From NCBI GenBank assembly GCA_937902985.1, contig CALFNG010000194.1:1-39077 (forward strand): 39,077 nt of DNA. The letters are read 5' to 3'. Positions within the stretch are counted from its first letter, which is position 1; the number at the start of each line of letters is the position of its first letter. Of this stretch, positions 12,853 to 38,752 are shown piece by piece. The notes beneath the pieces were generated by a model that saw only the letters and a list, made by a program, of their open reading frames with translations, did no database searches and was not told the origin of the DNA. The stretch comes from an uncultured Myxococcales bacterium. GTDB lineage: Bacteria; Myxococcota_A; Polyangia; Polyangiales; Polyangiaceae. The translations under genes and the position numbers were made by a program.

Positions 12853-13215
12853 ATGGGCGAAGGCCGCCGACCCAGCGCGGAGGTACGTGACTTCGTCGAG
12901 CGAGACGGCTACCGCGTCTGCCGATACACCCGGACGTACTCGAACGTCGCCGTGAACCCGCTGCCTCCCATCGCCACGAGCCCGGAGACCGGATACCCCG
13001 GCGGCGGATTCGAGACCTCCTTCGCGAACTCGGCCTGGCGCGTCTCCCAGATCGAGACGTGGGCCAGCACCCGAGACCCCCGACCCGCGCGCGAGGCGAA
13101 CGCGGCCGCGAGATCGTCGCGTGTTCCCCCGCCAATCGGCCCCAGGAGTTGCGAGCGGACCGGATTCGCGGCCGACGTGGGCGTCAGCCGCGCACCACCC
13201 GCAACTACCGCGTGA
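12853..13215 (+). CDS. Hypothetical protein, 120 aa, coupled to the PhnB-like gene
   Basis: The frame shows consistently G/C third positions through its whole length, unlike the other five frames here, so it is probably real. The N-terminal half is protein-like (VRDFVERDGYRVCRYTRTYSN and GGGFETSFANSAWRVSQIE) while the last third is Arg/Pro/Ala-rich. I recognise no family. It starts 3 bp after the PhnB-like stop and its last 11 bp overlap the end of the opposite-strand Cys-rich lipoprotein gene (stop at 13205). Confidence 0.5.
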   Translation: MGEGRRPSAEVRDFVERDGYRVCRYTRTYSNVAVNPLPPIATSPETGYPGGGFETSFANSAWRVSQIETWASTRDPRPAREANAAARSSRVPPPIGPRSCERTGFAADVGVSRAPPATTA

Positions 13216-16200
13216 CGCTGTTGCCGCAGACGCCGGGTTTACCGCCGCCACCGCAGGTCTCCGGGGAGACGCACGCGCCGCACTGGATCAAGTTGCCGCA
13301 CCCATCGCCCGCGGGCCCGCAGTTGATGCCCTGCGTCTGACAGCTGACCGGAACGCATGCGCCCGGGGGCGTGCCGCACTGGCCGGCGACTCCGCCGCCG
13401 CCGCACGTCTGGCCCGAAGGGCAGTTGCCGCACTGGATCAGGTTTCCGCACCCGTCGCCGGTCGGTCCGCAGCTGATGTTCTGCTGGGCGCACGTCACCG
13501 GAGCGCACGAGCCGGAGTCGGGCGCGCCGCAATGGCCGGGGACACCGCCGCCGCCGCACGCCTGGCCGCTCGGGCACGTACCGCAGTTGACCTGGTTGCC
13601 GCACCCGTCGCCGGTCGGACCGCAGCTGATGTTCTGCTGCGCGCACGTCAGCGGCGCACAGGAGGAGGCATCGGGGTAGCCACACTGGCTCGGGACGCCG
13701 CCGCCACCGCAGGTCGCCGGGGGCGTGCACGAGCCGCAGTCGACCTGGTTTCCGCACCCGTCGCCAGCCGGACCGCAGGCGACGTTCTGCGCGGCGCACG
13801 TGAGCGGCTTGCACGAACCGGCGTCGGGTCGGCCGCACTGGCCGGGCACGCCGCCACCGCCGCACGTCGCCGGGGCGGTGCACGTGCCGCACGAAAGGAG
13901 GTTGCCGCAACCGTCGCCCGCGGGTCCGCAGGTGATCGACTGGGCGGCGCACGACGTGGGGGCGCACGACGCGGCGTCGGGATATCCACATTGACCGGAC
14001 ACTCCGCCGCCGCCGCAGGTCTGCGGCGAGACGCAGGATCCGCAGTTGATCTGGTTGCCGCAGCCGTCACCCGCAGGCCCGCACGAGATGCCCTGCGAGG
14101 CGCACGTCTGCGCCTGACACCCGCCGCCGTCGGGGTAACCGCAGTGCCCGAAGACGCCGCCGCCGCCGCAAGTCTGCGGCGAGACGCACGTCCCGCAGTT
14201 GAGTTGATTGCCGCATCCGTCGCCGGCCGGCCCGCATGCGATGCCCTCTGAGACGCAAGTCTGCGGCGCGCAGCTCCCGCCGTCGGGATACCCGCACTGG
14301 CCCGCGACACCGCCGCCGCCGCAGGTCTGCGGCGAGACGCAGTTCCCGCAGCTGAGCTGCCCGCCGCAGCCGTCGCCCGCGGGCCCGCAGCTGATGTTCT
14401 GCTGCCCGCAGGTGAGCGCGGTGCACGAAGGCGGGGTCACGCACGAAGTCAGGTCGAACAGCATGAACTCGAGGAGTTTTTCCTGGGGCGTCATCGCGCC
14501 CGCCGTGCACTCCTTCGGGAAGGTCTTTCCCTTCGATTGGTTGTTCGAGGCGTCCTCGACGTGGAAGTCGCTGAAGACGACGCGCCCGCAAGTCCCCGCG
14601 CTGCCGCCGGCGGTGAAGGGCGTGTCGAACGTGTAGTGGATGTCCATGTGCGCCAGGCCGTTGTCCGGCGGGTTGGTCGTGTACATCCACTCCTGCGCCG
14701 GCGCGGTGGCACTGGTGAAGTCGTTGCGGATGACGTCGACGGGAATCTGCCCGTACGTCCCGCCGTACACGACCGGCTGATGGATCCAGTTGGCGAGCGC
14801 CTGCCCGCGCGGGAACGTCGCCTGAGCGTCGATGTTTCCGGTGAACGGGCCTTGCCACGAGCCCTTGTTCAACGCCCAGCTCGCGCTGGCCTCGAAGCCC
14901 GTCGTGGCGGTGCCGTTCGTGTTGAGCAAGGTGTAGTTGAAGTGCGTCGCGAAGACGCGCCCGCCGTCGTTCGCGAAGTTGAGCAGGTTGCCCAGCGTAT
15001 TGGGGAACCCCCGGTTCGACGTATAAGCAGCTTCACCGCCCTGGCACGGGAAGAGGATGACGTCGTACGAGTTCATCACCGACGAGCTCTCGGTGAGCGC
15101 CGACTCCTTGGGCGTCGCGTTGTCCACGACGGCGCCGCCCGCGTAGTTGCTGCCCTGATAGAGGTGCACGCGCCCCGCGGCCGTGGGCACCCCCTTCGCG
15201 ATGGCAGGGTCGACGAACTCCGCGTCGGCGATGCCCATCTTGCGCAGCACGCACTCCATCGTGTCGACGTTGCCCGTGTCGACGGCGAACTGCGGGATGT
15301 GGCCCTGAAGGTGCGTGCTCGGCAGCGTCAAGTTCGCCACGAGCTTGTTCGATGTGCACGGCGTGATCGACTCGGTAAACGCGCGCTGCCACTTGCCCAG
15401 CTGGACGACGAGCGTGAGGCTCGAGTTGCTCGGCACGTTCAGCGTGAAGCTGCCGTCGATGCTTGTGTAGGCCGAGACGTACGCCGGCGGGGCGGTGCAA
15501 CCGCAGATCGCCGGGTTGACTCCCGTTTGCGGCGTCTGTACGGCGCCGATGGGAACGTAGACGAGCGCGTTGTAGACGGGCAGGCTGTTGCCCGGGTCGA
15601 AGACGAAGCCGTTCACGCTGGTCGTCGCCCCGCCGTCGCACACCGACACGCTGGACGGCCCGCACCGATCGTAGCCGCCGCCGCCGCAGTACTGCGGCGA
15701 GGTGCAGGCGCCGCAGTTGATCAAGTTGCCGCAACCATCGCCTGCAGCGCCGCAGGTGTAGTTGAGCTGCGCGCACGTCTTGGGAGTGCACGCGACGCCG
15801 CCGTCGGGCGTGAGACCGTTGTTGCCGCCGCACTGGTCGTAGCCGGCGCCGCCGCAGTATTCGGGGTTGGTGCACGCGCCGCAATTGAGGAGCCCGCCGC
15901 ACCCGTCGGCCGCCTGACCGCAGTTGTAGCCGAGGGCCACGCACGTCGTGGGCGTGCAGGAGACGCCGCCGTCGGGCGTGAGGCCGTTGTTGCCGCCGCA
16001 CTGGTTGAAGCCACCGCCGCCGCAGTACTGCGGGTTGGCGCAAGAGCCGCAGCTGAGCGAACCGCCGCAGCCGTCGCCGGTGATGCCACAGGTGAAGCCG
16101 AGCATCGCGCACGTCTTGGGCGTGCAGGCGACGCTGCCGTCGGGGGTGAGGCCGTTGTTGCCGCCGCACTTGCTGTAGCCGCCGCCGCCGCAGTATCCCG

Positions 16201-17170
16201 GGTCGGTACATGAGCCGCAGCTGAGCGTGCCCCCGCACCCATCACCGGCGACGCCGCACGTATACCCCAGGCTGGTGCAGGTCTGGGGCGTGCACACGAC
16301 GCCCCCGTCAGGCGTGAGGCCGTCGTTGCCGCCGCACTTGTCGAAGCCGCCGCCGCCGCAGTACTGCGGGTTGGCGCAGCTGCCGCAACTGACCACGCCG
16401 CCGCAGCCGTCGGCCGCGATGCCGCAGGTGTAGCCGAAGGCCGTGCAAGTCGTCGGCGTGCACGGGATGCCGCCGTCGGGCAGCAGGCCGTTGCTGCCGC
16501 CGCATTTGTCGAAGCCGCCTCCGCCGCAGAACTGGGGGTTATTGCAGGTGCCGCAACTGAGCACGCCCCCGCAGCCATCTGCGGCGACGCCGCAGGTGTA
16601 CCCGAGCGCGGCGCACGTCGTCGGTGTGCAAGCGGTGCCGCCGCCGTCGGGGGTGAGGCCATTGTTGCCGCCGCACTTGTTGAAGCCGCCGCCGCCGCAG
16701 AACTGCGGACTGGCGCAGCTACCGCAACTGAGCACGCCGCCGCAGCCGTCCCCCGCATAGCCGCAGTCGATGGTGAGGCTCTGACAGGTCTCCTGCGTAC
16801 AGTTGCTCGTCGGCCCGGCGTCGCCGCCGTCGGGCAGAGAGCCGGTGCTTCCTCCGCATAGGCTGTAGCCGCCGCCGCCGCAGAATTGGCCCACCGGGCA
16901 CCCGCCGCAGTCGAGCGTGCTGCCGCACCCGTCGCCGTTCATACCGCACGTATACGAGAGCTCCGCGCACGTCTTCGGCACGCACGCCGTCGCCCCGGCA
17001 TCGTCGCCGCCGAACACACCGCCGCTGCCGTCCGACCGCTGGTCGGAGGCGTCGAATTGCCCCGGTACCGAGACCGTGGCGTCCGAGCCTCCGCACGAGG
17101 CGGCGGCGATCGCAGGCACTATTGCGACGACGAGCGTCGAGAGCCACCGCCCACCAAACCGTATACGCAT
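13205..17170 (-). CDS. Giant Cys-rich repeat lipoprotein: 8 + 8 eight-cysteine modules around a central domain
   Basis: 1321 residues from ATG 17170, chosen because the signal peptide (WLSTLVVAIVPAIAAASC, lipobox Cys26) starts there and a GAGGA site precedes it. Residues 63-510 hold eight tandem modules with spacing C-x4-C-x6-C-x6-C-x5-C-x2-C-x5-C-x7-C, each followed by a linker such as NNGLTPDGG. Residues 916-1321 hold eight more with x8 in the last gap and short YPDGG-type linkers. That is 128 cysteines, enough for four disulfides per module. The central part (about 515-910) starts with a carboxypeptidase-regulatory-like beta domain (SVNGFVFDPGNSLPVYNALV) and continues with a segment resembling a class I amidotransferase-like fold (YDVILFPCQGGEA, then NDGGRVFATHFNYTLL). 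Probably a surface protein; adhesion or carbohydrate binding is inference. Confidence 0.85.
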   Translation of the reverse strand: MRIRFGGRWLSTLVVAIVPAIAAASCGGSDATVSVPGQFDASDQRSDGSGGVFGGDDAGATACVPKTCAELSYTCGMNGDGCGSTLDCGGCPVGQFCGGGGYSLCGGSTGSLPDGGDAGPTSNCTQETCQSLTIDCGYAGDGCGGVLSCGSCASPQFCGGGGFNKCGGNNGLTPDGGGTACTPTTCAALGYTCGVAADGCGGVLSCGTCNNPQFCGGGGFDKCGGSNGLLPDGGIPCTPTTCTAFGYTCGIAADGCGGVVSCGSCANPQYCGGGGFDKCGGNDGLTPDGGVVCTPQTCTSLGYTCGVAGDGCGGTLSCGSCTDPGYCGGGGYSKCGGNNGLTPDGSVACTPKTCAMLGFTCGITGDGCGGSLSCGSCANPQYCGGGGFNQCGGNNGLTPDGGVSCTPTTCVALGYNCGQAADGCGGLLNCGACTNPEYCGGAGYDQCGGNNGLTPDGGVACTPKTCAQLNYTCGAAGDGCGNLINCGACTSPQYCGGGGYDRCGPSSVSVCDGGATTSVNGFVFDPGNSLPVYNALVYVPIGAVQTPQTGVNPAICGCTAPPAYVSAYTSIDGSFTLNVPSNSSLTLVVQLGKWQRAFTESITPCTSNKLVANLTLPSTHLQGHIPQFAVDTGNVDTMECVLRKMGIADAEFVDPAIAKGVPTAAGRVHLYQGSNYAGGAVVDNATPKESALTESSSVMNSYDVILFPCQGGEAAYTSNRGFPNTLGNLLNFANDGGRVFATHFNYTLLNTNGTATTGFEASASWALNKGSWQGPFTGNIDAQATFPRGQALANWIHQPVVYGGTYGQIPVDVIRNDFTSATAPAQEWMYTTNPPDNGLAHMDIHYTFDTPFTAGGSAGTCGRVVFSDFHVEDASNNQSKGKTFPKECTAGAMTPQEKLLEFMLFDLTSCVTPPSCTALTCGQQNISCGPAGDGCGGQLSCGNCVSPQTCGGGGVAGQCGYPDGGSCAPQTCVSEGIACGPAGDGCGNQLNCGTCVSPQTCGGGGVFGHCGYPDGGGCQAQTCASQGISCGPAGDGCGNQINCGSCVSPQTCGGGGVSGQCGYPDAASCAPTSCAAQSITCGPAGDGCGNLLSCGTCTAPATCGGGGVPGQCGRPDAGSCKPLTCAAQNVACGPAGDGCGNQVDCGSCTPPATCGGGGVPSQCGYPDASSCAPLTCAQQNISCGPTGDGCGNQVNCGTCPSGQACGGGGVPGHCGAPDSGSCAPVTCAQQNISCGPTGDGCGNLIQCGNCPSGQTCGGGGVAGQCGTPPGACVPVSCQTQGINCGPAGDGCGNLIQCGACVSPETCGGGGKPGVCGNSVTR
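13208..14424 (-). repeat. C-terminal array of eight Cys-rich modules (type 2)
   Basis: Eight coding repeats of about 150 bp. Each encodes eight cysteines with the constant core CGPxGDGCGN and CGGGG, and linkers of the YPDGGS type. They differ from the N-terminal array in the last cysteine spacing (x8 against x7), so the two arrays expanded separately. Confidence 0.9.
15640..16984 (-). repeat. N-terminal array of eight Cys-rich modules (type 1)
   Basis: Eight coding repeats of about 170 bp with the constant core DGCGG ... CGGGG[FY]xxCGG and the linker NNGLTPDGG. DNA similarity between units is high, so unequal recombination or assembly collapse is possible here. Confidence 0.9.
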
Positions 17171-17246
17171 CGATGTCCTCGCGAGAATTGGCGAAGCGGA
17201 CGTACAGGCCCGCCACACTAGGACCCAATATGGATGAACGCGAGCA

Positions 17247-17358
17247 AAGTTGCAATGCAACTTCGCGTGGCGAAAGCTCTCGCCTAGCTCGCCTAGCTCG
17301 CTCGCTCTCCGGCGAGATTCGCTCACACGCAGCTCGCTGGCGCGATTCGCTCACACGC
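17247..17358. repeat. Palindrome and 28-bp-spaced direct repeat upstream of the Cys-rich lipoprotein gene
   Basis: A perfect 17-nt palindrome, AAGTTGCA-A-TGCAACTT, occupies 17247-17263. A 20-bp direct repeat with one difference lies at 17311-17330 and 17339-17358 (core GATTCGCTCACACGC). The region between the lipoprotein start (17170) and the Sel1 relic has no convincing gene and probably carries the lipoprotein promoter. Confidence 0.6.
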
Positions 17359-17446: not shown

Positions 17447-17799
17447 GTGACCACCGCTGCGCCAGGCCGCATCGCGATCGATTTCCTCGGCACCTTCGCG
17501 GGAAGACGCCGCGCCCGGCTCGTGAGAGTGCAGCCGCGAAGTGCGAGGGCGGCGCGGGTTGTCTCCTCGCGCGCGCGGGAGAGATGCTCCGCGACGGCCA
17601 GGGAGTGGCAGAAGGCGAAGACCAGGCGCTCGCGATGTTTCAGCGGGCCTGCGCGAGCGGAGAGCCCAAGGGCTGCACGCTGCAGGCCGCGTCGTAGCGC
17701 CGGGACGCCGCGGCCCCTTCCGGCATCGGCTACGGCATCGGCAAGTTCATCGCCGATCCGGCGACGAGGCCGCGTCCGCGAACGCCGTCGTCTTGCTAG
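17447..17799 (+). pseudogene. Sel1-like repeat protein relic
   Basis: At 17529-17697 one frame encodes KCEGGAGCLLARAGEMLRDG followed by an AC-GEPKGC segment. This is the Sel1-like repeat pattern with paired cysteines that is common in myxobacterial secreted proteins. The frame meets a stop at 17695-17697, and downstream the same frame continues with protein-like GIGYGIGKFIADPAT before another stop. Upstream, a protein-like start (TTAAPGRIAIDFLGTFAG from GTG 17447) lies in a different frame. A frameshift plus an in-frame stop make this a decayed gene. Its end abuts the 3' end of the opposite-strand NRPS. Confidence 0.55.
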
Positions 17800-20700
17800 C
17801 GCGCGCGGATCACGGCGGAAACAGGCACTCGACCCGTATCCGGGCGCTCTCGACTCTCCGCCGGCACACGAAGGCCAATCTCGCGAGGAGAAGATCGCGG
17901 TGGCGCATCCGGATGGCAGCGAGCGATCGCCGCCGTGACCAGCTCGGCGATACGCGCCTGGTTCGACTCGCTGAACATGGTCAAGTGCGCCCCCGGAACG
18001 GTCGCCACCTCGATGTCACCGCCGACCCACGACTGCCAGCCGTACAGCGGATCGCCCATGCTGTTTCCGATCCAATGTTCGAAGATTCCCGTCTTGATGA
18101 GCAGCAGATCCGCGGGATCGCGTTGCTGGGGATGGTAGAGACCCCGGGCGTTCGTCAGCCCCGCGGCCACCTTGCGCAGCCGGAGATCCATGTCGGCGTC
18201 GCTGCTGGCGCAGAGAGGCGCCATCGCTTCTTCGGGGCGACCGATGGTCCGGTAGAAGCGGGTTCGCAAGCGATCCATCCGGCGCCGGAGATAGTCGCGA
18301 CGGCCTTCCACGTCGGCGTCGAGGAACGTTCGCACGTGAGCTCGCACACGCGCCAAGCCTGGCAAGAGCTTGGGGAACCCGGGGGCGAACCCATCGAAGG
18401 ACACGAGGAGCGGAACGGTTCGGCCTCGCGACCGCAGCTGGCGGGCCAGCTCGAACGCCACGAGGACGCCGAAGCTGTAGCCGCCGAGCACGATCGTCTC
18501 CTGCGGGCACGCCTCGAGGATTTGCGGCACGTAAATTTCAGCCATGCGCTCGATCGTGTGGTCGTACCCCTCGCTCGGGTCCTGGCTGCCGATGGCATTG
18601 AGCACATGGAGGGGATGCTGTTCGCCGAGACACCGCGCGAGGCCCTGAAACACGAAACCGAAGCCTCCGCTGCCCGACAGCAGCACGAGCGGCGGTTGCG
18701 CCCCGGATCGATTCAAGGTCACCAGATGGCGCGGCCGCGCCGTGACCGCGTCGGCTCGCTCGAGCGAAGCGGCGAGCGCTTCGAGCGTGGGATGCTCGAG
18801 GACGCTGGCGAGCGGGATCGGGAGCCCGAACTCCGTGGCCACGCGCGAGACCAGCATCACAGCCAGGAGCGAATGGCCGCCGAGAGCGAAGAAGTTGTCG
18901 TCGGCGCTTATGTCCTCTTTGCGCAGGAGCTCTCGCCAGATGGCCGCCATGCGCCGTTCCCGCTCGTTACGGGGGGCGATGAATGGCGTACGAGCCGCGC
19001 GCGCCGTGACGAGGGGCAGCGCGCTACAATCGACTTTGCCGTTGGAGGAAACGGGCAATGCGGCCAGCGCCGCGATCCGGCCCGGGACCATGAAGGCCGG
19101 CAGCGTGGAGGCGAGTTGCGCCTTGATCGCTTCTTCATTGAGTGAAGCGCCGTCGCGCATCACGACGTAAGCCACCAGCGCCTTTTGACCCGACGCGTCG
19201 GCGTACGCGGTGCACTTCGCTTCGCGAATCTGTGGCAACGCCGAGAGCGCGATCTCGACCTCACCCAGCTCGACGCGATAGCCCCGGATCTTCACCTGGA
19301 AGTCGGCGCGACCCAGGAACTCGAGATTCCCGTCGTCGAAGTACCGTGCGAGATCGCCGGTCTTGTACAGGCGATCGCCCGCGGCCCCGAAGGGGTCGGC
19401 GATGAAGCGCTCGCGCGTGAGCTCGGCTCGATGGAGATAGCCCTGAGCCAGGCAAGCGCCCCCGATATAGAGATCCCCGGTCACGCCGGCGGCCACCGGT
19501 CGCAGCTTCGCGTCGAGCACGTGGTAACGCGCGTTCTGGATGGGGCGTCCGTAAGGCACGCTCGTCCATCGCGGGTCGATCTGCTCCACGGGAAACGCGT
19601 TCGACCAGATGGCAGCCTCGGTGGCTCCTCCCAGACTGTGCACCGCGACCCCGGCGAAAACGTGCTTCAGCGCCCCGGGGAGGCTGATGGGAATCCAGTC
19701 GCCGCTGAGCATGACCAAACGCAGCGCCGAGCGTGGCGCGCTGCCGGCGGGCGAAGGAAAGAACGGGACGAGGCGCTGCAGCGCGGCCGGAGCCGAATCC
19801 CAGATGGTGATGCCCCGCTCGGTGACCGCGCGCGCGAGCACCGCCGGGTCCTGGAGCCAATCGCTGGTCGCCACGACCACGGTGGCGCCCGCGCCGAGGC
19901 TACCGAAGAGATCGTAAACGGAGAGATCGAAGGAGGGCGAGGTGACGAAGAGCAGACGGTCACCCGGCCCCACGCCAAACGTGCGATTCACCCAGTCGAG
20001 GGTGTTGACGACGGCGCGATGGGTCAGCACGACCCCCTTCGGTCGCCCCGTGCTGCCCGACGTATAGATCGCATAGCAAGCGTCGGTCGGCTCGGCGGCG
20101 TTCGGCGGACGAGTCGGTGGCATCGCGGCGATGTCGGTCATGTCGGCGCCATCGACGACGAGCGCGGGCGCTGCGAAGAGCGCACGGTGCCGCGCATCGA
20201 CGACGACGAGGAGCGCTTCGGCGTCGGCGAGCATGAACGCGAGACGTTCGGCGGGGTAGTCGGGATCGAGCGGCACGTAAGCCGCCCCAGCCTTGGCGAT
20301 GGCCAGGAGGGTGACCACGAGGCCGAAGCCCCGGGAAAGGCAAACCCCGATGTACACGCCCGGCCGAGCGCCCCGGGCGATGAGCGCGTGAGCAAGCCGG
20401 TTCGCCCGTGCCTCGAGCTCGGCGTACGTCAGCGTCGCGTCCCCGCACTCGACGGCAATGTCCGCGGGCCGAAGCGCGACCTGCTGCTCGAAGGCCTCGT
20501 GAATGCAAAGTCCCTCGGGAAACGAACGCACCGTGTCGTTCCATTCGACGAGAATCCGATGGCGTTCGTCCGAGGACAAGATGTCCACCTCGCCGAGGCG
20601 CGTGTGCTCGCCGGCCCCGGCGAGGCCATCCATGGCTGCGATCAAGTAGGCGGCGATCCGCTCGACGACCGGTTCGCGAAAGCGCGAGCGAGCGAAGAGC

Positions 20701-21941
20701 AGGCGAACTTCGAGGGTCTCGCCCTCGAACACGGTGACCGTCAACGGAAGCGAAGGCTGCTCGTGGAGCGTGCAAGAGCGCGATTTCCAGGCCGGATGCG
20801 CCTGGCGCAACTCCTGGTTGAGCTCGCGATTCTCGAACATCAGGAGCGTCTCGAAAAGTGGGGCCCCCGGCGGGAGGTCGCTGTGGGCTTGAATCTCCGC
20901 GAGCACCGCGTGCTCGTGCGGGCGGAGATCGAGCGCGTGCTGTCGCACCTGATCGAGGAATTCGGCCACGAGACCGTCCTCGCCGAGGCTCACGCGCAGC
21001 GGCAAGGTGTTCATCAGCAAACCCACAGTCTGGCGGGCTCGTCCCCCGAGCATTCCGCCGCGGCAAGCGCGCACCGTGCCAAAAAGGACGTCTTGATCTC
21101 CGGTGAGCCGTGAAAGCACGAGAGCCCAGGCCGCATGGATGAGCGTTCCCATCGAAATCTGGGGGCGTCGCTGGGTCAAGGCTCGCGCGGCGGCGAGCAC
21201 CCGCTCGTCGACGACCCGCCGGACCGTGCCCACGCCTTGGTGCGGAAGCGGCCGAGCAGCCGGCTCCGCCAGCGGAAGCGGTGTCGGCGCCGTCTTGCCG
21301 CGCAGCCATTCTTCGAAGAAAGACGAGCTGGCCAGATGAGCGCGCCGCCCGAGCCACTCGACGCACTCGCGAAGCGGCGGTCCCGGAGGCCCCAGGCGGC
21401 TCGGCTCTCCACCCCGCAGGACCGCGTACGAAGCGAATGCCTCCGCCAGGACGATCGCCATCGAGCGTCCGTCGACCAATATGTGATGAACGGTCCAGAC
21501 GACCTCACACCGGTCCGTAGCGCACCGAAAAACGGTGACTCGCATGAGGGGAGCGCGCCGCAGGTCGAAGCCTCGGGCCCGGTCGCTCGCGAGAAAGGCC
21601 TCTCGTCGCCGTTCGAGCTCCGCCTCGTCGAGCCCGCGCCAGTCCACCGTCTCGACCGGCACGACGACCCCCGACTCGGAGCGCTGTTGCGGTTCCTGAG
21701 GCCCCTCCCACCGGAAAGTCGCTGAAAGGGCCGGATGTCGACGAAGAACGAGCGACCAAGCCTTCGCGAACTCGGGCGGACTGATGTTCTCCGCCAGCAC
21801 GATGTGGATCTGTTCGATGTCGTAGCCGGCGCCCTGCTTCTCGAGTTGGAGCACGCTCTGAAAGAGCATCCCCGTCTGCATGGGGAGGAGTCCATAGGCG
21901 ACGCTGCGCGCGGCTGAGTCAGCGATGTCGACGATGGCCAT
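17796..21941 (-). CDS. Single-module NRPS: C - A - T - thioesterase
   Basis: 1381 residues; the ATG is preceded by GGTGGG at a good distance. The condensation domain (about 15-440) has an intact HHILVDG (His152, His153, Asp157) and the later LLMNTLPLRV motif. The adenylation domain (about 470-960) has YTSGSTGRPKG, SFDLSVYD (Asp672 anchors the amino group), GGATEAAIW, GRADFQVKIRG and the A10 Lys in NGKV. By alignment to GrsA I read the code D-L-Y-D-M-S-L-I-W-K, close to the known cysteine code DLYNLSLIWK, with Asp instead of Asn at position 278. The carrier has GGHSL (Ser1024). The thioesterase has GGYSFG (Ser1156) and His1319. It would condense an upstream acyl or aminoacyl donor with a cysteine-like residue and release the product. 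No other module, Sfp-type transferase or transporter is adjacent. Confidence 0.9.
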   Translation of the reverse strand: MAIVDIADSAARSVAYGLLPMQTGMLFQSVLQLEKQGAGYDIEQIHIVLAENISPPEFAKAWSLVLRRHPALSATFRWEGPQEPQQRSESGVVVPVETVDWRGLDEAELERRREAFLASDRARGFDLRRAPLMRVTVFRCATDRCEVVWTVHHILVDGRSMAIVLAEAFASYAVLRGGEPSRLGPPGPPLRECVEWLGRRAHLASSSFFEEWLRGKTAPTPLPLAEPAARPLPHQGVGTVRRVVDERVLAAARALTQRRPQISMGTLIHAAWALVLSRLTGDQDVLFGTVRACRGGMLGGRARQTVGLLMNTLPLRVSLGEDGLVAEFLDQVRQHALDLRPHEHAVLAEIQAHSDLPPGAPLFETLLMFENRELNQELRQAHPAWKSRSCTLHEQPSLPLTVTVFEGETLEVRLLFARSRFREPVVERIAAYLIAAMDGLAGAGEHTRLGEVDILSSDERHRILVEWNDTVRSFPEGLCIHEAFEQQVALRPADIAVECGDATLTYAELEARANRLAHALIARGARPGVYIGVCLSRGFGLVVTLLAIAKAGAAYVPLDPDYPAERLAFMLADAEALLVVVDARHRALFAAPALVVDGADMTDIAAMPPTRPPNAAEPTDACYAIYTSGSTGRPKGVVLTHRAVVNTLDWVNRTFGVGPGDRLLFVTSPSFDLSVYDLFGSLGAGATVVVATSDWLQDPAVLARAVTERGITIWDSAPAALQRLVPFFPSPAGSAPRSALRLVMLSGDWIPISLPGALKHVFAGVAVHSLGGATEAAIWSNAFPVEQIDPRWTSVPYGRPIQNARYHVLDAKLRPVAAGVTGDLYIGGACLAQGYLHRAELTRERFIADPFGAAGDRLYKTGDLARYFDDGNLEFLGRADFQVKIRGYRVELGEVEIALSALPQIREAKCTAYADASGQKALVAYVVMRDGASLNEEAIKAQLASTLPAFMVPGRIAALAALPVSSNGKVDCSALPLVTARAARTPFIAPRNERERRMAAIWRELLRKEDISADDNFFALGGHSLLAVMLVSRVATEFGLPIPLASVLEHPTLEALAASLERADAVTARPRHLVTLNRSGAQPPLVLLSGSGGFGFVFQGLARCLGEQHPLHVLNAIGSQDPSEGYDHTIERMAEIYVPQILEACPQETIVLGGYSFGVLVAFELARQLRSRGRTVPLLVSFDGFAPGFPKLLPGLARVRAHVRTFLDADVEGRRDYLRRRMDRLRTRFYRTIGRPEEAMAPLCASSDADMDLRLRKVAAGLTNARGLYHPQQRDPADLLLIKTGIFEHWIGNSMGDPLYGWQSWVGGDIEVATVPGAHLTMFSESNQARIAELVTAAIARCHPDAPPRSSPREIGLRVPAESRERPDTGRVPVSAVIRAR

Positions 21942-24524: not shown

Positions 24525-24652
24525 GCCAGGGCGCTTTCCTCTAAGTTGAGCGGGTCCGTATCGGCGGGCGCCGCGCGCAGCCGGGCTTCCCGCCCGGCGA
24601 GCACGGCGAGCGCCGAGACGGGCCCGATCAACGACGAGGAAAGTGCCCTGGC
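24525..24652 (+). ncRNA. 128-nt structured element, copy A (5' of rlmE)
   Basis: It folds as one long rod. P1: 24525-24540 with 24637-24652, 16 bp including one G-U. P2: 24548-24557 with 24620-24629, one mismatch and one G-U. P3: 24561-24566 with 24611-24616. P4: 24569-24573 with 24604-24608. P5: 24580-24586 with 24592-24598, capped by TTCCC. The 24541-24626 core is 70/86 identical to copy B at 35205-35290 with no gaps, while the P1 arms share only 3 of 16 bases with B. Internal loops CTAAGT and ACGACG are identical in both copies. The 3' arm of P1 ends two bases before the rlmE ATG and contains AGGA. A structured leader RNA or a folded repeat element are the two readings; strand is assumed from the flanking genes. 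Confidence 0.7.
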
Positions 24653-31638: not shown

Positions 31639-32463
31639 TTACGGGGGGAGCGTCCAGGAGAACGTGTAGAGACGGCCGGCCGAGTGCAGGTTTTGATAGA
31701 GGTTCAGGCTCGGTTGCGTGTATCCGGCCGAGGTGGGGTCGTCGCTGAAGCCATAGGAATCCGAGAATTTCGCGAGCTGACTGAAGTCGACGTTCACGAA
31801 GAACAGCCGCGGATCGACGCGAAGAAGCAGCCCGCCGGTCGAGCCCACGACCACCGAAGTCGGGATGGGCGAGACGATGCGCTGCCTGCAGATCGGGTCG
31901 GCGCCCGCGGCCGCGCTGCCCGACGCCTGGCGGTTCGCGCCGATGGTGAGCTTGCCTTCGAAGGGCATGACGATGTCGCCAGTGCTCGCAGTCCCGGCGA
32001 TCGTGAGGATCGTCGTCGGCGGGCTCGGAGTCGCCGCTACGTCGACGTCGCCGCCCGTGAGCCACACTTGCCCCACGAGGGCCGGCGGCTCGGTCGTACC
32101 CGAGCCCTGCCCGGGAAACGGCTGCGGCGCGGGCGACAGGAGGTTCACGTCGAGGCCAGCGGTCACCTGCCCGACGTACGTGCCCGGGAGCACGCAGTTC
32201 GTTCCCTGCGAGCCCGACACCGGCATGCTCTGATCGAGGTAGAGCGCGCCGACGTGAAGCGTCGCGGTGCTCAGCACGACAGTCCAGCCGCGGTCGGTCG
32301 TGAACCGCAAGGGCTCGCCGGCGATCGCGTCGGCGGGCCCGGCCGCGGCCGCCGGAAACGTCACGAGCTGACCGCCCGTCGTGCCCACGCACGCCGCGCA
32401 AGCGCAAGCGATCAGGCTCGCGAGCGCGGCGGCTCGCCGCGCGAGAGGAGCGGCCAGGCCCAT
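31639..32463 (-). CDS. Lipoprotein, second gene of the TonB-receptor operon
   Basis: 274 residues from ATG 32463, which shares a base with the receptor stop (TGATG), so it is translationally coupled. The signal peptide ends in CAACVG. The mature protein begins with a strand pair around PLRFTTDRGWTVVLSTATLHVGALYLDQ and continues as a beta-rich domain (LVGQVWLTGGDVDV, MPFEGKLTIGANRQ, GGLLLRVDPRLFFVNVDF). The C-terminal segment (SAGYTQPSLNLYQNLHSAGR) reads as a regular strand. The coupling to a TonB-dependent receptor implies that it handles the same ligand. Function is otherwise unknown. Confidence 0.75.
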   Translation of the reverse strand: MGLAAPLARRAAALASLIACACAACVGTTGGQLVTFPAAAAGPADAIAGEPLRFTTDRGWTVVLSTATLHVGALYLDQSMPVSGSQGTNCVLPGTYVGQVTAGLDVNLLSPAPQPFPGQGSGTTEPPALVGQVWLTGGDVDVAATPSPPTTILTIAGTASTGDIVMPFEGKLTIGANRQASGSAAAGADPICRQRIVSPIPTSVVVGSTGGLLLRVDPRLFFVNVDFSQLAKFSDSYGFSDDPTSAGYTQPSLNLYQNLHSAGRLYTFSWTLPP

Positions 32464-35009
32464 CACGCGCCTCCGAAGGTGACCGCGAACGTGACGTAGA
32501 CGCCCCGCGGAGCGCCCGCCGAGAACATCCGCTCCGGCACGAGCGTCGGCTGCGACTGGCTGTGAAAGTCGGACGGGTAGTTGTACTCGCCGAGCCGGTA
32601 CTTCGCGTCGAGCAGGTTCGTCGACGTGATCCCGATCTGGTAGCGCGCCCAGGCCAGCGTCGCGGATGCGTCGACGGTGAAGAGTGCGTCGCTGTCCTGG
32701 CCGAACGGAAGCGGCCGCGGCCCGACGTAGGTGACGCCGCAGCTCAGCGTGCCTCGCACCGGCGAACCGGCGAGCCGGAGCGGGAGCTCGTGAAAGAAGC
32801 TCGTGTCCGAGCGGAGCACGTCGCCCGGGATGTACGCGACGAGGCGATGGGTATCGTCGTAGGTCGCGCGGACCAGCGTGAGGTTCGCCGACTCGTCGAA
32901 GAACGGCCCCGTGAGGCGTAGCGCGCCCACCCAGCCCGTCCGGTGCGTGCCGACGCCGAGCACGTTGCGCCCCACCGTCTCGTCGAAGACGAGATCTTTG
33001 TCGACGAGCGTCTCGAAGAAGATCGAGCGCACGACGACCGAGACGTCGTCGACCGACCCGGCGTACGAGACCCCCGCGTCGTGGGCGGCGATGCTGGCGA
33101 AGGGCGTCTTGACGTCCTGCGTGACGTAGCTCGGGTCGATCGAGCGAACGCCCTTGCCGACGCTGGCCGAGATCACGAGGTGCGCGATCGGGCCCAGGAG
33201 CAGCGACGCCCGCGGCAACACCGCGGCGCTCGACGTCGACGTCTGCTGGTTCGGCTCGCGCGGGCGACCGAAGTCTTGCTGCGAGAGGCAGCTCTGGTCG
33301 ATGGGCGGGTTCGTGGTCGACGGGTGCGCGACGGTCTGGGCCGCGCAGTCGTTCAAGACGTCGTACGTGAGGAGATCGGCCCGCACTCCGCCGCGAACGT
33401 TCACCCACGCCAGCGGCCGCAGGTTCGCGTCGGCATAGAGGCCGATGTCGCCGAGCTTGGAGTCGAGGTCCGTGTCCGTCGCGTAGGGAACGCCGGTGCT
33501 CGCTTCGAGGCGTTGCTGGGTGCCGGCGACGTCGTCGCCGCGCGCGTAGTAGCCGAACTCGAGCTCCTGGCGTTGCCCGAACGCCGTCGCGTGGAGGCGC
33601 GCTGCGCCGCGCGCGCCCACGGTGACCTCGTGCACGTCGAGGTCGATCATGTCGCCTCGCTGCGCGTGGAGGCTCTGGAGCGGCTGCTGCACGTCGAGCA
33701 AGAAGCCCGTGAAGTTCTCGAGCAGACGCATGTCGCGCTTGATGACGAAGACCTGCTGGGTCAGCGTCGTGTTTCCCGACGTCGATTCGACGTCGGCCGC
33801 CACCGAGAACCGCGACGCATCTCCGCCCTCGGGCACGGCCTCGTGCGCGAACGACGAGACGTCGTAGCTGCCGTAGAAGCCGATCTTGCCCGCCTGGTAG
33901 TCGTCTTGCCGGACGAGCCCCGCGGAGTGGTAGTGCGTCGAATACGCCTGCGCCGTCAGCCGGTACGAGCCGCGCGCGCCGAGCTCCCCCTCGTACTGCC
34001 CCATCGCCGTCGCGCGCTGCGCGTCACGGTTCTGCCCGAACCCGGCGGTCGAGTAGAGCTCGACGCCCCCGAGGGTGTGGGCGCTCCCGCCCGGCGGCCC
34101 CCAGAGGAGGAGCGCCCGCTGCGTACCGAAGCTGCCGCCGGTGTACCTGGCGGTGAGCCCCCGCTGCGCGAGGCCGAGCTGGTAGTCGGCGCTGCCGGCC
34201 ACGGCATAGTTGCCCTGGCGAGGATCGAACGGGCCTTCGACGACGCGAAGGCGCTCGACGAGCTCGGGGATGATGAAGTGCGCGTCGGCGTAGCCGTTGC
34301 CATGCAGGTTCCCGCTCTCGTTGATGGGCACGCCGCCCACCGTGAACTCGATGTCCTGCCCCTCGCGGGCGTCGAAGCCACGGAGGAAGACCTGCTCCGC
34401 GTGCCCCTCGCCTCCCTCGTTGCTCAGCATGATGCCGGGGGCGAGCTTCAGCAGCTCGCTGGCGTTCTGGCGCGGCACGTTCGCCAGCGCGCCCACGACG
34501 AGGTTGAAGTCCGAAGCGCCAACGTTCGGTGGCGCGGCGCGACCGCGTACGTTCACTTCTTCGGGCACGGGCACGGGCACGGGCACGGGCACGGGCACAG
34601 ACGCAGGCGCGGGCGCAGGCGCGACCGCGGGCGCAGGCGCAGGCGCGACCACGACTGTGAGCCGCCCAAAGTGAAATGGGATCGTGATGCGGCTGGCGAC
34701 GGGTGTTCCGTCGCGGGTCGCAGGCACGAAGGTCCACCGGCGCGCGGCCGCAGCCGCCGCCTCGTCGAGATCCGCGCCCCCCGAGTCGGCGACCGCCGTG
34801 TCCGAGACATGCCCATCCGCACCGACGGTGACGATGAGAACGACATCGGCCTGCGCGCGGTCGCCGAGGGCCGAGGCTGCGAACACCGCGTCGGCGCGCT
34901 CGACGACGACTGGCGGTGTGACCCGCGGCGAGGGCTGCGCGAGCGCCGTCGCCGTCGCGGCGAAGAGGGACGCCACGAGCCCGAAGGTGAAGGCGAGCCG
35001 GCATTGCAT
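32463..35009 (-). CDS. TonB-dependent receptor with N-terminal TonB C-terminal domain (paralog 1)
   Basis: 848 residues from ATG 35009; an in-frame extension to 35060 overlaps a good promoter, so it is not used. Order: signal peptide (ends ATALAQ); a TonB C-terminal-type domain at about 30-115 (ADVVLIVTVGADGHVSDTAV, then ARRWTFVPATRDGTPV and ITIPFHF); an Ala-Pro / Val-Pro linker at about 120-155; a plug domain at about 158-270 with LKLAPGIMLSNEGGEGHAEQ and FTVGGVPIN; then a 22-strand-type barrel ending in the aromatic-rich strand GVYVTFAVTFGGA. Such receptors import bound ligand across the outer membrane using TonB energy. Having a TonB-like domain in front of the plug is unusual. It heads a three-gene operon with two lipoproteins. 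Ligand unknown. Confidence 0.88.
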   Translation of the reverse strand: MQCRLAFTFGLVASLFAATATALAQPSPRVTPPVVVERADAVFAASALGDRAQADVVLIVTVGADGHVSDTAVADSGGADLDEAAAAAARRWTFVPATRDGTPVASRITIPFHFGRLTVVVAPAPAPAVAPAPAPASVPVPVPVPVPVPEEVNVRGRAAPPNVGASDFNLVVGALANVPRQNASELLKLAPGIMLSNEGGEGHAEQVFLRGFDAREGQDIEFTVGGVPINESGNLHGNGYADAHFIIPELVERLRVVEGPFDPRQGNYAVAGSADYQLGLAQRGLTARYTGGSFGTQRALLLWGPPGGSAHTLGGVELYSTAGFGQNRDAQRATAMGQYEGELGARGSYRLTAQAYSTHYHSAGLVRQDDYQAGKIGFYGSYDVSSFAHEAVPEGGDASRFSVAADVESTSGNTTLTQQVFVIKRDMRLLENFTGFLLDVQQPLQSLHAQRGDMIDLDVHEVTVGARGAARLHATAFGQRQELEFGYYARGDDVAGTQQRLEASTGVPYATDTDLDSKLGDIGLYADANLRPLAWVNVRGGVRADLLTYDVLNDCAAQTVAHPSTTNPPIDQSCLSQQDFGRPREPNQQTSTSSAAVLPRASLLLGPIAHLVISASVGKGVRSIDPSYVTQDVKTPFASIAAHDAGVSYAGSVDDVSVVVRSIFFETLVDKDLVFDETVGRNVLGVGTHRTGWVGALRLTGPFFDESANLTLVRATYDDTHRLVAYIPGDVLRSDTSFFHELPLRLAGSPVRGTLSCGVTYVGPRPLPFGQDSDALFTVDASATLAWARYQIGITSTNLLDAKYRLGEYNYPSDFHSQSQPTLVPERMFSAGAPRGVYVTFAVTFGGA
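34563..34598 (-). repeat. GGGCAC hexanucleotide x6 in the receptor linker
   Basis: Six perfect 6-bp units encode alternating Val-Pro in the linker between the TonB-like domain and the plug. The unit length keeps the reading frame, so copy-number changes would lengthen or shorten the linker by two residues at a time. Confidence 0.9.
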
Positions 35010-35020
35010 CGCCGGCGTTA

Positions 35021-35048
35021 AGTATAACGACGTAACAACCAATGCAAA
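35021..35048 (-). promoter_or_regulatory. Sigma-70-type promoter of the TonB-receptor operon
   Basis: On the minus strand TTTGCA (35048-35043) and TATACT (35026-35021) are separated by 16 bp, 4/6 and 5/6 matches to the consensus hexamers. The stretch is clearly AT-richer than its surroundings. Transcription would start only a few bases before the ATG at 35009, so the message would be leaderless or nearly so; no ribosome site is visible. Confidence 0.5.
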
Positions 35049-35188
35049 CGGATCGCACATCGCTGCGGATTATTTAGGTTCCGGATGCCAAATACGTCTT
35101 ACGACGTTCGCACGTTCCCCGCTGCGGACGTGGACGCCGCGTCCACGTCCAATTCCACGCTCGGTCCGCCAATCGAACGGCAGCGGGC

Positions 35189-35316
35189 CCAGAGCGAGCG
35201 GCGGCTAAGTCGAACGGGGCCGGCTCGGCGGTCGCCGCGCGGAAACGCACTTCCTGTGCGTTGAGCACGGCGAGCGCCGAGACGGGCCCGTTCCACGACG
35301 CCGCCGCCCGCTCTGG
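35189..35316. ncRNA. 128-nt structured element, copy B (between the two receptors)
   Basis: Same length and fold as copy A, at a constant offset of 10664. P1: 35189-35204 with 35301-35316, 15 of 16 pairs. P2: 35212-35221 with 35284-35293. P3: 35225-35230 with 35275-35280. P4: 35233-35237 with 35268-35272. P5: 35244-35250 with 35256-35262, loop TTCCT. Four P5 pairs differ from A by compensatory change on both sides (G-C to A-T, C-G to A-T, G-C to C-G, G-C to A-T). The element ends exactly where the stop codon of the second receptor begins (35317), so on the transcribed minus strand it is the start of that gene's 3' untranslated region. Confidence 0.7.
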
Positions 35317-37833
35317 TCAGAGCGTGGCGGAAAGCGAGAGGAAGAGCATGCGCGGGGCCCCCGCCGTGAAGGACCGCTCCGGAGTGAGCGTGGGCGGCGC
35401 CTGCGGATTGAAGTCGGAGACGAAAGTGAACTCGCTCAGTCGGTACTTCGTGTCGAACAGGTTCGTGCCGGTGAGACCGAGCTCGAACGCGCGCCAGGTG
35501 AGCTTCAGCGCCGCGTCGACGAGCACGTAGGGCACGCTCGATTCGCCGAGCGGAAGCGAGCGCGCGCCCACGTAGGTGACCGACGGGCCGATCGACGCCC
35601 GGATGGTATGGCGAGCGAGCCGCCACGGCAGATCGCCGAAGAACGCCGTATCGGAGCGCGCGAGGACGTGCGGCACGTACGGAATGCCTTCGTGGCTGGC
35701 GTCGAGGATGCCCCGGACGACGGCCACGTTCGCCGCTTCATCGAAGAACCGACCCGTGAGGCGACCGGCACCGACCCAGCCGGTGCGCTCCGTCGCGCCC
35801 GTCTCGACGGTGCGGCCCAGAACGGGGTCGACGACCTCGTCGCGGTCGATCTCCGTGTCGTAGAAGACCGAGCGCAAGGTCAGCTGGCCGGCGCCGGTGG
35901 CGCGAGCGTAGGACACGCCCCCTTCGTACGACGAGATCGTCGCCAGCGGCGTGGTGGGGTTCGCGGCGACCTCGTCGATCGCGAGGGAGCGGACCCCGCG
36001 ACCGTAGCTGCCGACCAGCGTGACGCCGTCGAAGGCGCCCAGGAGGAGCGATACGCGCGGGAGCATCTCGCTGGCGGCGGCGCTCGTGCGAGGGTTGGCG
36101 CCGGGCTTCGCGTCGTCGGTGCAGCCGGGCGCGGCGGCGGCGCAGCCGTTCTCGACCGAATACGTGAACAGCTCTTCGCGCACGCCGCCGCGCACGGTGA
36201 CGAACGACACGGGCTTGAGGCTCGCGTCGGCGTAGAGCGCGAGGTCGCCGAGGAACCCGCCGAGGCTGGCGTTGGTCGCGTAGGGAACCTGCGTCGCGCG
36301 ATCGACGAGGTGCTGCACGTTGTCGACGGAGTCGCCGCGCGCGAAATACCCGATCTCGAGCTCCTGGGGCTGGCCGAGCGCCTCGACGTGGGTTCGCGCC
36401 GCTCCGCGCGCGCCGAAGGAGCGCTCGGTCATCGCCAGATCGAGCATCGTGCCCAGGGGTTCTCGGACCCCTTGGTCGTTCACGTAGCCCGTGAAGTCTT
36501 CGCGGATGCGGAGCGACCGGTCGATCGCGAAGAGCTGCTGCGTCAGCGTGGTGTAGCGCGTGGCGCTGCCCGTCCGCGTCTCGAGGTCGGCGGCGAGCGA
36601 GAAGCGCGACGAGTCTTGCCCCTGGTTGGGGTCGTACGTGCCGTAGAACCCGATGCGACCCGCGTCGTAGTCGTCTTCGCGAACGACTCCAGCCGCCTGC
36701 GACACGACGGAATAGGCCTGGCCGGTGACGCGCCAGGTGCCGCGGTCGCCGAGCTTGCCTTCGTATTGCGCGAGCGCCGAGCCTCGCTGGTACGCGCGGT
36801 TCTGGCCGTACCCGTTCGACTCGGCGTACTCGGCCGCGGCGAACGTGTGAGCGCTCTCGCCCTCCGGCCCCCACGCGAGGAGCATCTTCTCGGTGCCGTA
36901 GCTGCCCGCGGTCCACTTCGCGGTGAGCCCGCGGCGGGCGAGCCCGAGCTCGTAGTCGGCGCTCCCGGCGACGGCGAAGTTGCCCTGATGCGGATCGAAG
37001 GGCCCCTCGAGCACCCGGACCGACTGGACGGCCTCGGGCAGAACGAAGTGGGAGTCGGCGTAGCCGTTACCGTGGAAGTTCCCCGGATCGTTGACCGGTA
37101 CGCCGCCGACGGTGATCTCCATCGACTCGCCTTCTCCGGCGTCGAAGCCGCGGAGAGTGATGGAGTCGGCGTGCCCTTCGCCGCCCTCGTTGGTCACCAG
37201 AACGCCGGGCGCGAGCTTCAAGAAGTCAGCGGCGCTCGCGCGCGGGACCACGGCGAGCTCGCCGACCGGGAGCTCGAAGTCGGCGCCGCCCCGGGCCGGC
37301 GCTCGCGCGCGTCCGGTCACGCTCACCTCGCTCACGTCAGCCGGTGCGGCAGTGGACGGCGGCGCGGGCGGGCTCGGGACCGCCTCGTGGACCGGGACTT
37401 CACCCGGGGCGGGCGGCGTCTCGACGAGCTCCGGCGGAAGCGCGGGCGGCGCGAAGTGGAACGGCATCTTGATGCGGCTCGCCACCGGCTTGCCGTCGCG
37501 AAGGGCGGGCACGAACGTCCACTCGCGGGCGGCGACGATCGCGGCCTCGTCGAGGTCGGCACCGCCGGACTCGACGAGATCGACCTTCGAGACGTGGCCG
37601 TCGGCGTCGACCGTCACGGCGAGGACGACGTCGGCGTGTTCGCGCGCGGCCAGGGCCGACGGCGGGTACACGGCGTCGACGTGGTGAATGACGACCGGCG
37701 GAACGACCACGGGGGGAACGACGTCGTGACGTGCGTTCGCGACCTGACCCATCACCGGGTTCGCGACGCCGAGGCCGGTAGCCGCGGCTCCGAGCGCGGT
37801 CATGAGGGCGAGGCGGCGGCTGGTCTCCCTCAT
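35317..37833 (-). CDS. TonB-dependent receptor with N-terminal TonB C-terminal domain (paralog 2)
   Basis: 838 residues from ATG 37833. Same design as the neighbouring paralog: signal peptide (ending VMGQ), TonB C-terminal-type domain at about 45-130 (VDAVYPPSALAAREHADVVL, SGGADLDEAAIVAAREWTFV, IKMPFHFAPP), a Pro-rich linker at about 133-168 that here has no hexanucleotide repeat, plug with LKLAPGVLVTNEGGEGHADS and ITVGGVPVN, and a barrel ending MLFLSLSATL. The plug and barrel are clearly homologous along their length (for example VEGPFDPRQGNYAVAGSADY against LEGPFDPHQGNFAVAGSADY), so a local duplication is likely. No partner lipoprotein is attached to this copy. The 3' end abuts structured element B. 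Confidence 0.88.
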   Translation of the reverse strand: MRETSRRLALMTALGAAATGLGVANPVMGQVANARHDVVPPVVVPPVVIHHVDAVYPPSALAAREHADVVLAVTVDADGHVSKVDLVESGGADLDEAAIVAAREWTFVPALRDGKPVASRIKMPFHFAPPALPPELVETPPAPGEVPVHEAVPSPPAPPSTAAPADVSEVSVTGRARAPARGGADFELPVGELAVVPRASAADFLKLAPGVLVTNEGGEGHADSITLRGFDAGEGESMEITVGGVPVNDPGNFHGNGYADSHFVLPEAVQSVRVLEGPFDPHQGNFAVAGSADYELGLARRGLTAKWTAGSYGTEKMLLAWGPEGESAHTFAAAEYAESNGYGQNRAYQRGSALAQYEGKLGDRGTWRVTGQAYSVVSQAAGVVREDDYDAGRIGFYGTYDPNQGQDSSRFSLAADLETRTGSATRYTTLTQQLFAIDRSLRIREDFTGYVNDQGVREPLGTMLDLAMTERSFGARGAARTHVEALGQPQELEIGYFARGDSVDNVQHLVDRATQVPYATNASLGGFLGDLALYADASLKPVSFVTVRGGVREELFTYSVENGCAAAAPGCTDDAKPGANPRTSAAASEMLPRVSLLLGAFDGVTLVGSYGRGVRSLAIDEVAANPTTPLATISSYEGGVSYARATGAGQLTLRSVFYDTEIDRDEVVDPVLGRTVETGATERTGWVGAGRLTGRFFDEAANVAVVRGILDASHEGIPYVPHVLARSDTAFFGDLPWRLARHTIRASIGPSVTYVGARSLPLGESSVPYVLVDAALKLTWRAFELGLTGTNLFDTKYRLSEFTFVSDFNPQAPPTLTPERSFTAGAPRMLFLSLSATL

Positions 37834-37882
37834 GCGCGGGCGGACGTTACAGCGACTGAGCGCGCGTGTCAGTCGGGCGCGC

Positions 37883-38752
37883 TCATTCGGCGCGCGCAAG
37901 CTCCCTCAGCGTGCTCGAAGAGACCCACGCGTCGGTCGCCCCGAAGCGAACCCGCGTCGCCCCTCCGCGCAGCTCGACGATCTCGACCCTCGCTCCTTCG
38001 GGGAGGGGCGTCGCGCCCGGGAGCGCGATGCCTCGCGCGTCGTTCGGTCTCGCACTGGTGGCCACGACCACGGCCTCGCGCAGGGTCAACCGGTCGTGGC
38101 GCGCGGCGAGGGTCATCCCGACGGCGACCGCGAGCGCGGGGGCGGCGACCGACGCGACCACCCCGCCCGCGATGCGGACGCGAGGGCGACCGCCCAGCCA
38201 TCGGGCGAAGAGCCCCGCGGCCAGGGCCATGGAGAACCCGATGGCGAGCGCCGACCAGACCGACTCCGGAAGCAGCCCCGCGAGCGTGCGCGCCAGCGTG
38301 CGGCCCGGATCGACCTCGACGGGATCGCCCGCGCTGAGACGCCGCCGCGCAATCTCGCCCCGGACGATGCCGAGCGCGCTCGACGCGTCGTCCGTCAGCT
38401 TGGGATCGGTGGAGAGATCGCGCGCTTCTTCGAACCCGTGCGCCGCGCGGCCGAGATCGCCCGGCACCTCGGCTCCGATGCGGACGCGCATCGCGTACGC
38501 CAGGCCGCGGTCGTAGCTGGCGGCGGCGTCGACGACGCCCTCGTCGGCGAGCGTCTCGAACGACGCGACGGCGTCCCCGGCGCGCCCCTCGCGAAGCGCC
38601 CGGATGGCGCCGTCGAAGAGGGCGCTCGTACCGCTTGCATCGCCGGGGTCATGGTCGGCGTCGGCCCGCGCGACGCCCGCGGGCAGCACGAGCCCCGCAA
38701 AGGCCAGCATGACCCCGAGGGCCCACGGGACGACGAACGCCGCGCGGCTCAT
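37883..38752 (-). CDS. BatE-like TPR / SH3 membrane protein
   Basis: 289 residues from ATG 38752, which overlaps the stop of the preceding gene (ATGA). Order: signal peptide (ALGVMLAFAGLVLPAGVARADA), a TPR-like helical region at about 45-140 (SALFDGAIRALREGRAGDAV, SYDRGLAYAMRVRIG), a TM pair at about 168-188 and 197-225 (WSALAIGFSMALAAGLFARW; RIAGGVVASVAAPALAVAVG), and a small C-terminal SH3-like beta domain (TPLPEGARVEIVELRGGATRVRFGATDAWVSSSTL). This TPR-TM-SH3 arrangement is that of BatE-type proteins of the Bacteroides aerotolerance operon. The assignment rests on architecture and on the neighbour. The function of Bat proteins is poorly known. Confidence 0.65.
   Translation of the reverse strand: MSRAAFVVPWALGVMLAFAGLVLPAGVARADADHDPGDASGTSALFDGAIRALREGRAGDAVASFETLADEGVVDAAASYDRGLAYAMRVRIGAEVPGDLGRAAHGFEEARDLSTDPKLTDDASSALGIVRGEIARRRLSAGDPVEVDPGRTLARTLAGLLPESVWSALAIGFSMALAAGLFARWLGGRPRVRIAGGVVASVAAPALAVAVGMTLAARHDRLTLREAVVVATSARPNDARGIALPGATPLPEGARVEIVELRGGATRVRFGATDAWVSSSTLRELARAE

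Follow-up and report, generated by a model that had tools for sequence, protein, structure and literature searches.

Does the long hairpin at positions 35189–35316 of the window, by which we mean the whole 39,077-nucleotide stretch of DNA that was analysed, stand alone, and why does it end exactly at a stop codon? The element (copy B) is given here on the plus strand, which is the orientation of its family (CTAAG half-loop on the 5' side) and antisense to the abutting gene. Its 5' closing arm, CCAGAGCGAGCGGCGGC (35189–35205), is of the B type (family form NTAGAGC...), its 3' closing arm (35300–35316) touches the stop codon with its outer end, and the TAA and GAC halves of a conserved 3×3 internal loop lie at 35206–35208 and 35297–35299 (all plus strand). 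An earlier note on this DNA had counted 15 of 16 paired positions between the arms (35189–35204 and 35301–35316) and placed the element at a stop codon. Both observations were borne out: the sole exception is the ninth pair, A·C on the plus strand, and base 35316 adjoins the TGA (35319–35317) of a minus-strand gene at 35317–37899. This gene encodes a TonB-dependent receptor-like protein (TonB_C, Plug, beta-barrel) whose named relatives are from Myxococcota MAGs, including a Labilithrix sp. The next gene on the same strand (32463–35060; TonB_C, Plug) is its paralogue and has its first ATG 128 nt past copy B. Copy B is flanked by these tandem TonB-receptor-like paralogues, both of which combine an N-terminal TonB_C domain with a Plug domain. 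Folding energies were −106.3 and −108.1 kcal/mol on the plus and minus strands (z −9.7 and −9.9), slightly better on the minus, non-family strand. None of 200 shuffles folded as well for copy A (below) or copy B, and the hairpin of copy B is thus far from chance. In an Rfam scan of the window, none of 4227 families reached its gathering score.

The second element of the window, copy A (24525–24652, plus strand, A-type arms; −109 and −103.9 kcal/mol on plus and minus, z −9.5 and −8.8), occupies an atypical site. It lies 79 nt after the stop of the ribosomal protein L3 gene (23528–24445, plus strand) and adjoins a start codon, and is an exception to the stop-codon placement described below; the corresponding site in the related genome G002 is unrelated intergenic DNA. 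The arms of copy B had been described as fully replaced relative to copy A, with only 3 of 16 bases in common. Position by position this is correct, but it is the artefact of a one-base offset: after a shift, the outer eight bases, CCAGGGCG and CCAGAGCG, agree at 7 of 8 positions and the 3' ends at 6 of 8. Replacement is not complete in the family either, since the outer TAGAGC occurs in both arm classes and only about nine inner pairs differ. That the only non-Watson-Crick pair is the ninth in both copies (G·T on the plus strand in copy A) is likewise right as to position, but coincidental, as the two fall in different alignment columns. The G·U of copy A belongs to a subfamily-wide pair (columns 12–140, G-U in 14 of 41 copies) and the A·C of copy B, at the following pair, occurs in no other copy (columns 13–139, 1 of 41).

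Both copies of the window and a covariance model served as queries against its genome (G000; a soil bacterium, 8.3 Mb in 563 contigs). The matches comprise 44 complete copies, a weaker one of full length and a 70-bp copy, 46 in all, in addition to contig-end fragments; this total excludes copies truncated at a contig end and repeat entries for a single locus. The alignment holds 41 copies, and the closing-stem, G-U/A-C and energy counts refer to 44, with L113 and L115 excluded. The elements are about 122–130 bp long and most end NTAGAGC...GCTCTAN', with NTAG at both ends, where N is usually C or G. Their arms fall into two main classes that have the TAGAGC end in common: B (TAGAGC-GAGCGGCGG) and A (TAGAGC-GCTTTTCCT). 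The arms of copy B are not unique, more than 20 copies having recognisably the same ones, and copy A falls in the second class. The interior, which contains the 3×3 internal loop, is more conserved than the arms, with the loop 5-mers CTAAG in 32 and CGACG in 40 of the 44 copies. CTAAG/CGACG looks like the UAA/GAN RNA motif, on which a literature search found nothing.

Covariation of the closing stem, which the earlier note had read from two copies, holds throughout the family: there are 36 distinct 5' arms in 44 copies, 722 of 748 cells are paired (693 Watson-Crick and 29 G-U; 96.5%), and 31 of 50 consensus pairs show double-sided change among the aligned copies. Judged from the aligned copies, the stem co-varies, which argues that pairing itself has been maintained. 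As an argument against a mobile repeat, the use made of it in that note, covariation does not serve, given 46 copies of which most have the common terminal sequence NTAGAGC...GCTCTAN'. Many copies with one fixed terminal sequence had been named there as the mark of an ordinary mobile repeat, and this is largely what was found, in the form of two arm classes with the TAGAGC end in common. In L012, L023 and L048 the asymmetric internal loop has been converted to paired sequence, and in copies L107 and L139 of another genome, G021, one half-arm has been copied from the other half-arm; because of these closed loops and converted half-arms, arm-to-arm correction seems to occur. At L053 (G000:C510, contig end) the contig breaks off inside the element, an assembly artefact at the palindrome, and runs into what is apparently Illumina adapter.

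The covariance model matched 7 of 38 genomes in the relatives set and 17 of 108 in the family set (G000 included in both), with the matches of the latter set concentrated in genus g20 (G021, G114–G118); from G021, 44 of at least 54 copies were examined. G001, a genus-mate of G000, gave no match at first. It has its own family with the same architecture, spotted on inspecting the L3 gene end, where the G001 orthologue carries an element of this family at its TAG stop; the G001 family sequence was not found in G000 by blastn. Among G000–G002 the hits of the G001 family comprised 29 loci (28 in G001 and one in G002, the latter only a 57-base match). Of these, 26 G001 loci were analysed, including the damaged or partial copies L268, L272 and L281, of which L268 and L281 were omitted from the alignment only. 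G001 elements often form inverted pairs with a spacing of about 60–130 nt, in which each member faces the gene on its own side (C376:15908-16246, C265:14972-15292, C109:3571-3972). Two genes are occupied in different genomes, L010/L263 (56% identical) and L004/L203 (67% identical), ending at the same residue, which could reflect independent hits or very old residence; the hosts of L012/L211, L039/L271 and L026/L269 are homologous, their orthology not being clear. L048/L167 was rejected as a third doubly occupied gene, the G001 side being at most a partial copy. A limited literature search found no description of such repeats in myxobacteria or Sorangium.

Placement was scored by requiring a coding-like ORF (≥300 nt, GC3 minus GC2 ≥0.25) with its stop ≤9 nt from the element end; gene calls are GC-based, the genomes are incomplete drafts and the copies are related. 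On this criterion a stop lies at the 3'-arm end in 34 of 46 G000 copies and at the 5'-arm end in one of the 46 (L023, with a stop at either end), and 12 of the 46, copy A included, have no abutting stop. When stops were sought up to 400 nt away, the 34 on the 3'-arm side all lay at −3 to +2, and the 21 on the 5'-arm side were spread from −6 to −385. The corresponding figures are 28 vs 1 of 44 in G021 (one copy with both) and 17 vs 0 of 26 in G001. The G000 host genes are unrelated, with 84 Pfam families over 39 proteins and a single alike pair, L006/L018 (acyl-CoA dehydrogenase). TAG predominates among the abutting stops (27 TAG, 6 TGA and 1 TAA of 34 in G000; 18 TAG and 9 TGA of 28 in G021; 17 of 17 TAG in G001), against a rough background of 8 TAG in 25 ORF ends in G002 loci. 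The REP/RAYT feature of a terminus that supplies a TAG stop to flanking ORFs is present in all three genomes. Read in gene sense (NTAG-AGC...), the unit starts with its own TAG and seems often to provide the stop of its host gene, because relatives stop with TGA where G000 has the TAG of the element (L004, L045, L009, L041); at L035 a TAG stands directly before the unit. In-frame peptide insertion (RPE-like) was considered and rejected: two gene-sense frames look open on visual inspection, but the element length is not divisible by three.

The earlier note had proposed that each copy pairs best on the strand used by its neighbours. The folding energies of copies A and B agree with this narrowly, but the rule fails for the family, because 42 of 44 G000 copies have the more stable minimum-energy fold on the strand antisense to the gene normally abutted, as do 38 of 44 in G021 and 25 of 26 in G001. 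The mean advantage of the antisense strand is 12.2 kcal/mol in G000 and 5.2 in G021. In the family orientation, G-U and A-C cells number 137:11 in G000 and 61:4 in G021 (44 copies each), counts based on a fold predicted for that same strand, a procedure biased towards G-U. Columns common to at least two copies stand at 13:0 and 6:0, singletons at 7:11 and 7:4. When the structure is taken from the other strand, common columns still give 7:1 and 3:1 for G-U, while the cells reverse to 30:53 and 13:48 through single columns; wobble cells are not independent, because the copies are related. In G001 each strand's own prediction gives near-equal counts (47:2 and 44:3 for whichever strand was folded), and therefore only the energy comparison speaks for the strand there. 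Since G-U occurs in common columns, no such A-C does, and singletons are roughly even, we infer that antisense-strand folding was selected in the lineages that multiplied and relaxed afterwards, rather than being selected site by site.

Seventeen orthologous gene ends (14 genes) were inspected in G001 and G002. Sixteen are without an element and L167 has a partial G001-type start; most orthologues terminate at the same residue or a few residues away, and the L048 protein is 10 codons shorter than its orthologue. The arms of the G000 elements are absent from these ends, the best match being 13 of 17 bases in about 3 kb (a figure that has no shuffled baseline). An empty site with a plain hairpin made of the two arms, which the earlier note had suggested looking for at orthologous loci, was found at none of the 17. 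As to a TA duplication, the element ends have the form NTA...TAN', and the orthologous sites are too distant to align downstream of the stop. As to a longer mobile unit, distal flanks are mostly unrelated, but L008/L020/L021 and L032/L033 are alike from the junction onward, and many G021 copies (uncounted) have a common TGCTC-type tail. At L230 (G000:C456:5945-6028) the tail 'TTCTCCATGGCTGGGG', common to three element copies, follows a TGA stop without a hairpin, possibly a hairpin deletion.

On balance we consider it rather more likely than not that copy B is a member of a dispersed, non-autonomous mobile palindrome, similar to REP, ERIC or YPAL, which settles at stop codons in one orientation and spreads via its folded strand. 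Directly observed are the family itself, the placement, fixed orientation and better-paired antisense strand (these in three sequence-distinct families), orthologous sites that lack the element, covariation of the stem and, in G000 and G021, the bias of common columns to G-U over A-C. If folding was selected in the lineages that spread, spreading would use the folded antisense strand, most likely as single-stranded DNA or else as RNA. Occasional arm-to-arm copying, as suggested by the closed loops of L012, L023 and L048, may help to keep the arms complementary, and insertion at the 3' ends of genes would be the work of some enzyme. The resident hairpin begins at the stop codon and could, by analogy, hold up ribosomes during termination or stabilise the end of the mRNA; passages of PMC12306157 report ribosome stalling by REPs ≤15 nt from a stop codon. 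The Y1 transposase domain (Y1_Tnp, PF01797) had no match in G000, G001, G021, G010, G012 or G022, most of them drafts, and one match in G002. A linkage to reverse transcriptases was rejected (14 loci scanned with the model, one 19-bit match), as were carriers among plasmids, phages and viral contigs, where the search gave no match.

The alternative raised in the earlier note is that a core inserted into the loops of existing hairpins such as terminators. The outer arms are indeed variable around a more constant core, but they fall mainly into two classes with a common TAGAGC end and the point at which they depart from the consensus varies between copies; because the orthologous sites have neither element nor arm hairpin, we give this idea almost no credence. 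A much stronger competitor, although still an unlikely one, is a MITE of the ERIC/RUP/IS630 type, moving by cut-and-paste with TA duplication into palindromic NTAN' targets (CTAG, GTAC). As CTAG is rare in the genome and often at stop codons, placement would then follow from target choice alone. The ends do read NTA[GAGC...GCTC]TAN', 34 of 41 copies have complementary outermost bases (35 if a single U-G is counted), CTAG occurs 14 times in the window vs 109 expected from base composition only, and TA termini with TA duplication are recorded for ERIC and RUP in portions of PMC2229807. But with the same NTAG on both arms the orientation should be random, and it is 34:1, 28:1 and 17:0 in G000, G021 and G001; some sites abut TGA (6 of 34 in G000, 9 of 28 in G021); and where the outer pair is G/C (e.g. 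L045, L041), removal of the element with its TA would leave no stop where relatives do stop. Targeting of the rare CTAG may contribute to placement but cannot give the orientation.

It is less likely again that the hairpin is a resident functional RNA at the 3' ends of genes, acting as terminator, as protector of the mRNA end or as a hairpin that stalls ribosomes, and selected gene by gene with mobility incidental. Exact stop-codon placement in G000, G021 and G001 would suit it, as would the stalling reported for REPs in the passages cited (PMC12306157). Against this, the mRNA strand is the worse-paired one, singletons have no clear G-U bias, and at the same genes congeneric species carry other sequence families or no element. 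L017, moreover, lies between two same-strand genes, which we take to be iscS and iscU, where a terminator would be harmful. Complementarity kept purely by mutation (quasi-palindrome correction, template switching), with no selection on folding, draws on the closed internal loops of L012, L023 and L048 and the converted half-arms of L107 and L139. We think it quite improbable, since it predicts no bias of G-U over A-C and would erase the CTAAG/CGACG loop, the CGACG side of which is kept in 40 of 44 copies.

If copy B belongs to a mobile palindrome, several known systems invite comparison. YPAL of Yersinia prefers sites just downstream of stop codons. Integron attC sites combine a palindrome after the stop codon, a folded bottom strand and variable arms, in which respects the present elements are like them. 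In contrast to attC sites, no cassette arrays were seen here and no R'/R'' core boxes of attC were recognised by eye. An integron link was rejected, no integrase (TIGR02249) being found over the cut-off in G000. L237 of G021 (G021:C4:1124454-1125395) is, separately, a TIGR02249 match over the cut-off with one in-frame TGA.

GTAG REPs lie near gene 3' ends and 'often provide' the ORF beside them with its TAG stop (PMC3733652), and TnpAREP acts on one folded strand, with strand-specific recognition of ssDNA (PMC8266576). Dispersed palindromes at gene 3' ends, a TAG-supplying terminus and one favoured strand, which here is the better-paired one, are thus common to both. REPs are described there as 20–40 bp with GTAG at one end, however, compared with 122–130 bp and NTAG at both ends here; the favoured strand is here antisense to the host gene, and no Y1_Tnp was found in G000, G001 or G021. 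Size, the double NTAG and the missing Y1_Tnp led us to reject membership in REP/RAYT. Given these differences, and those in exactness, fixed orientation and antisense strand, the elements are therefore REP-like in behaviour, larger than known palindromic repeats, and not REPs by the features tested. ERIC/IRU, in the parts of PMC2229807 and PMC2759123 seen, is an imperfect palindrome of about 127 bp with TA termini, intergenic and sometimes fused to gene ends; it is similar in palindrome size and terminal TA, but exact one-orientation placement at stop codons is not described for it in those parts, and no sequence relation was found. YPAL appears in PMC2229807, as far as its relevant passages go, as palindromic insertions near gene ends, co-transcribed and, like ERIC, similar in size to the present elements, but differs in having termini without TA and duplications of 3–26 bp.

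A bolder idea, which we put forward only tentatively and regard as doubtful, is that the palindrome recognises stop codons as such. An enzyme or process that reads gene 3' ends, perhaps via transcription, translation termination or mRNA cleavage at UA/G, would install the folded antisense strand with its own TAG in fixed orientation, and would do so for unrelated families in different myxobacteria and sometimes in the same gene. Whichever reading applies, the elements of three families sit at unrelated genes with a precision of a few bases and in a single orientation, with no RAYT found in the three genomes. They appear to replace stop codons and set a hairpin of about −100 kcal/mol before the terminating ribosome. 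They make a clean test case for whether the accumulation of mobile repeats at gene ends reflects targeting or filtering by selection, and for the strand that such repeats use.

Three further features of the window were observed. A minus-strand ORF of 1373 amino acids (13205–17326) contains 153-bp and 168-bp tandem repeats and has no Pfam match. A single-module NRPS with condensation, AMP-binding, carrier and thioesterase domains is encoded at 17796–21941 (minus strand), and a direct repeat with a 28-bp period and three registered copies lies at 1119–1215.
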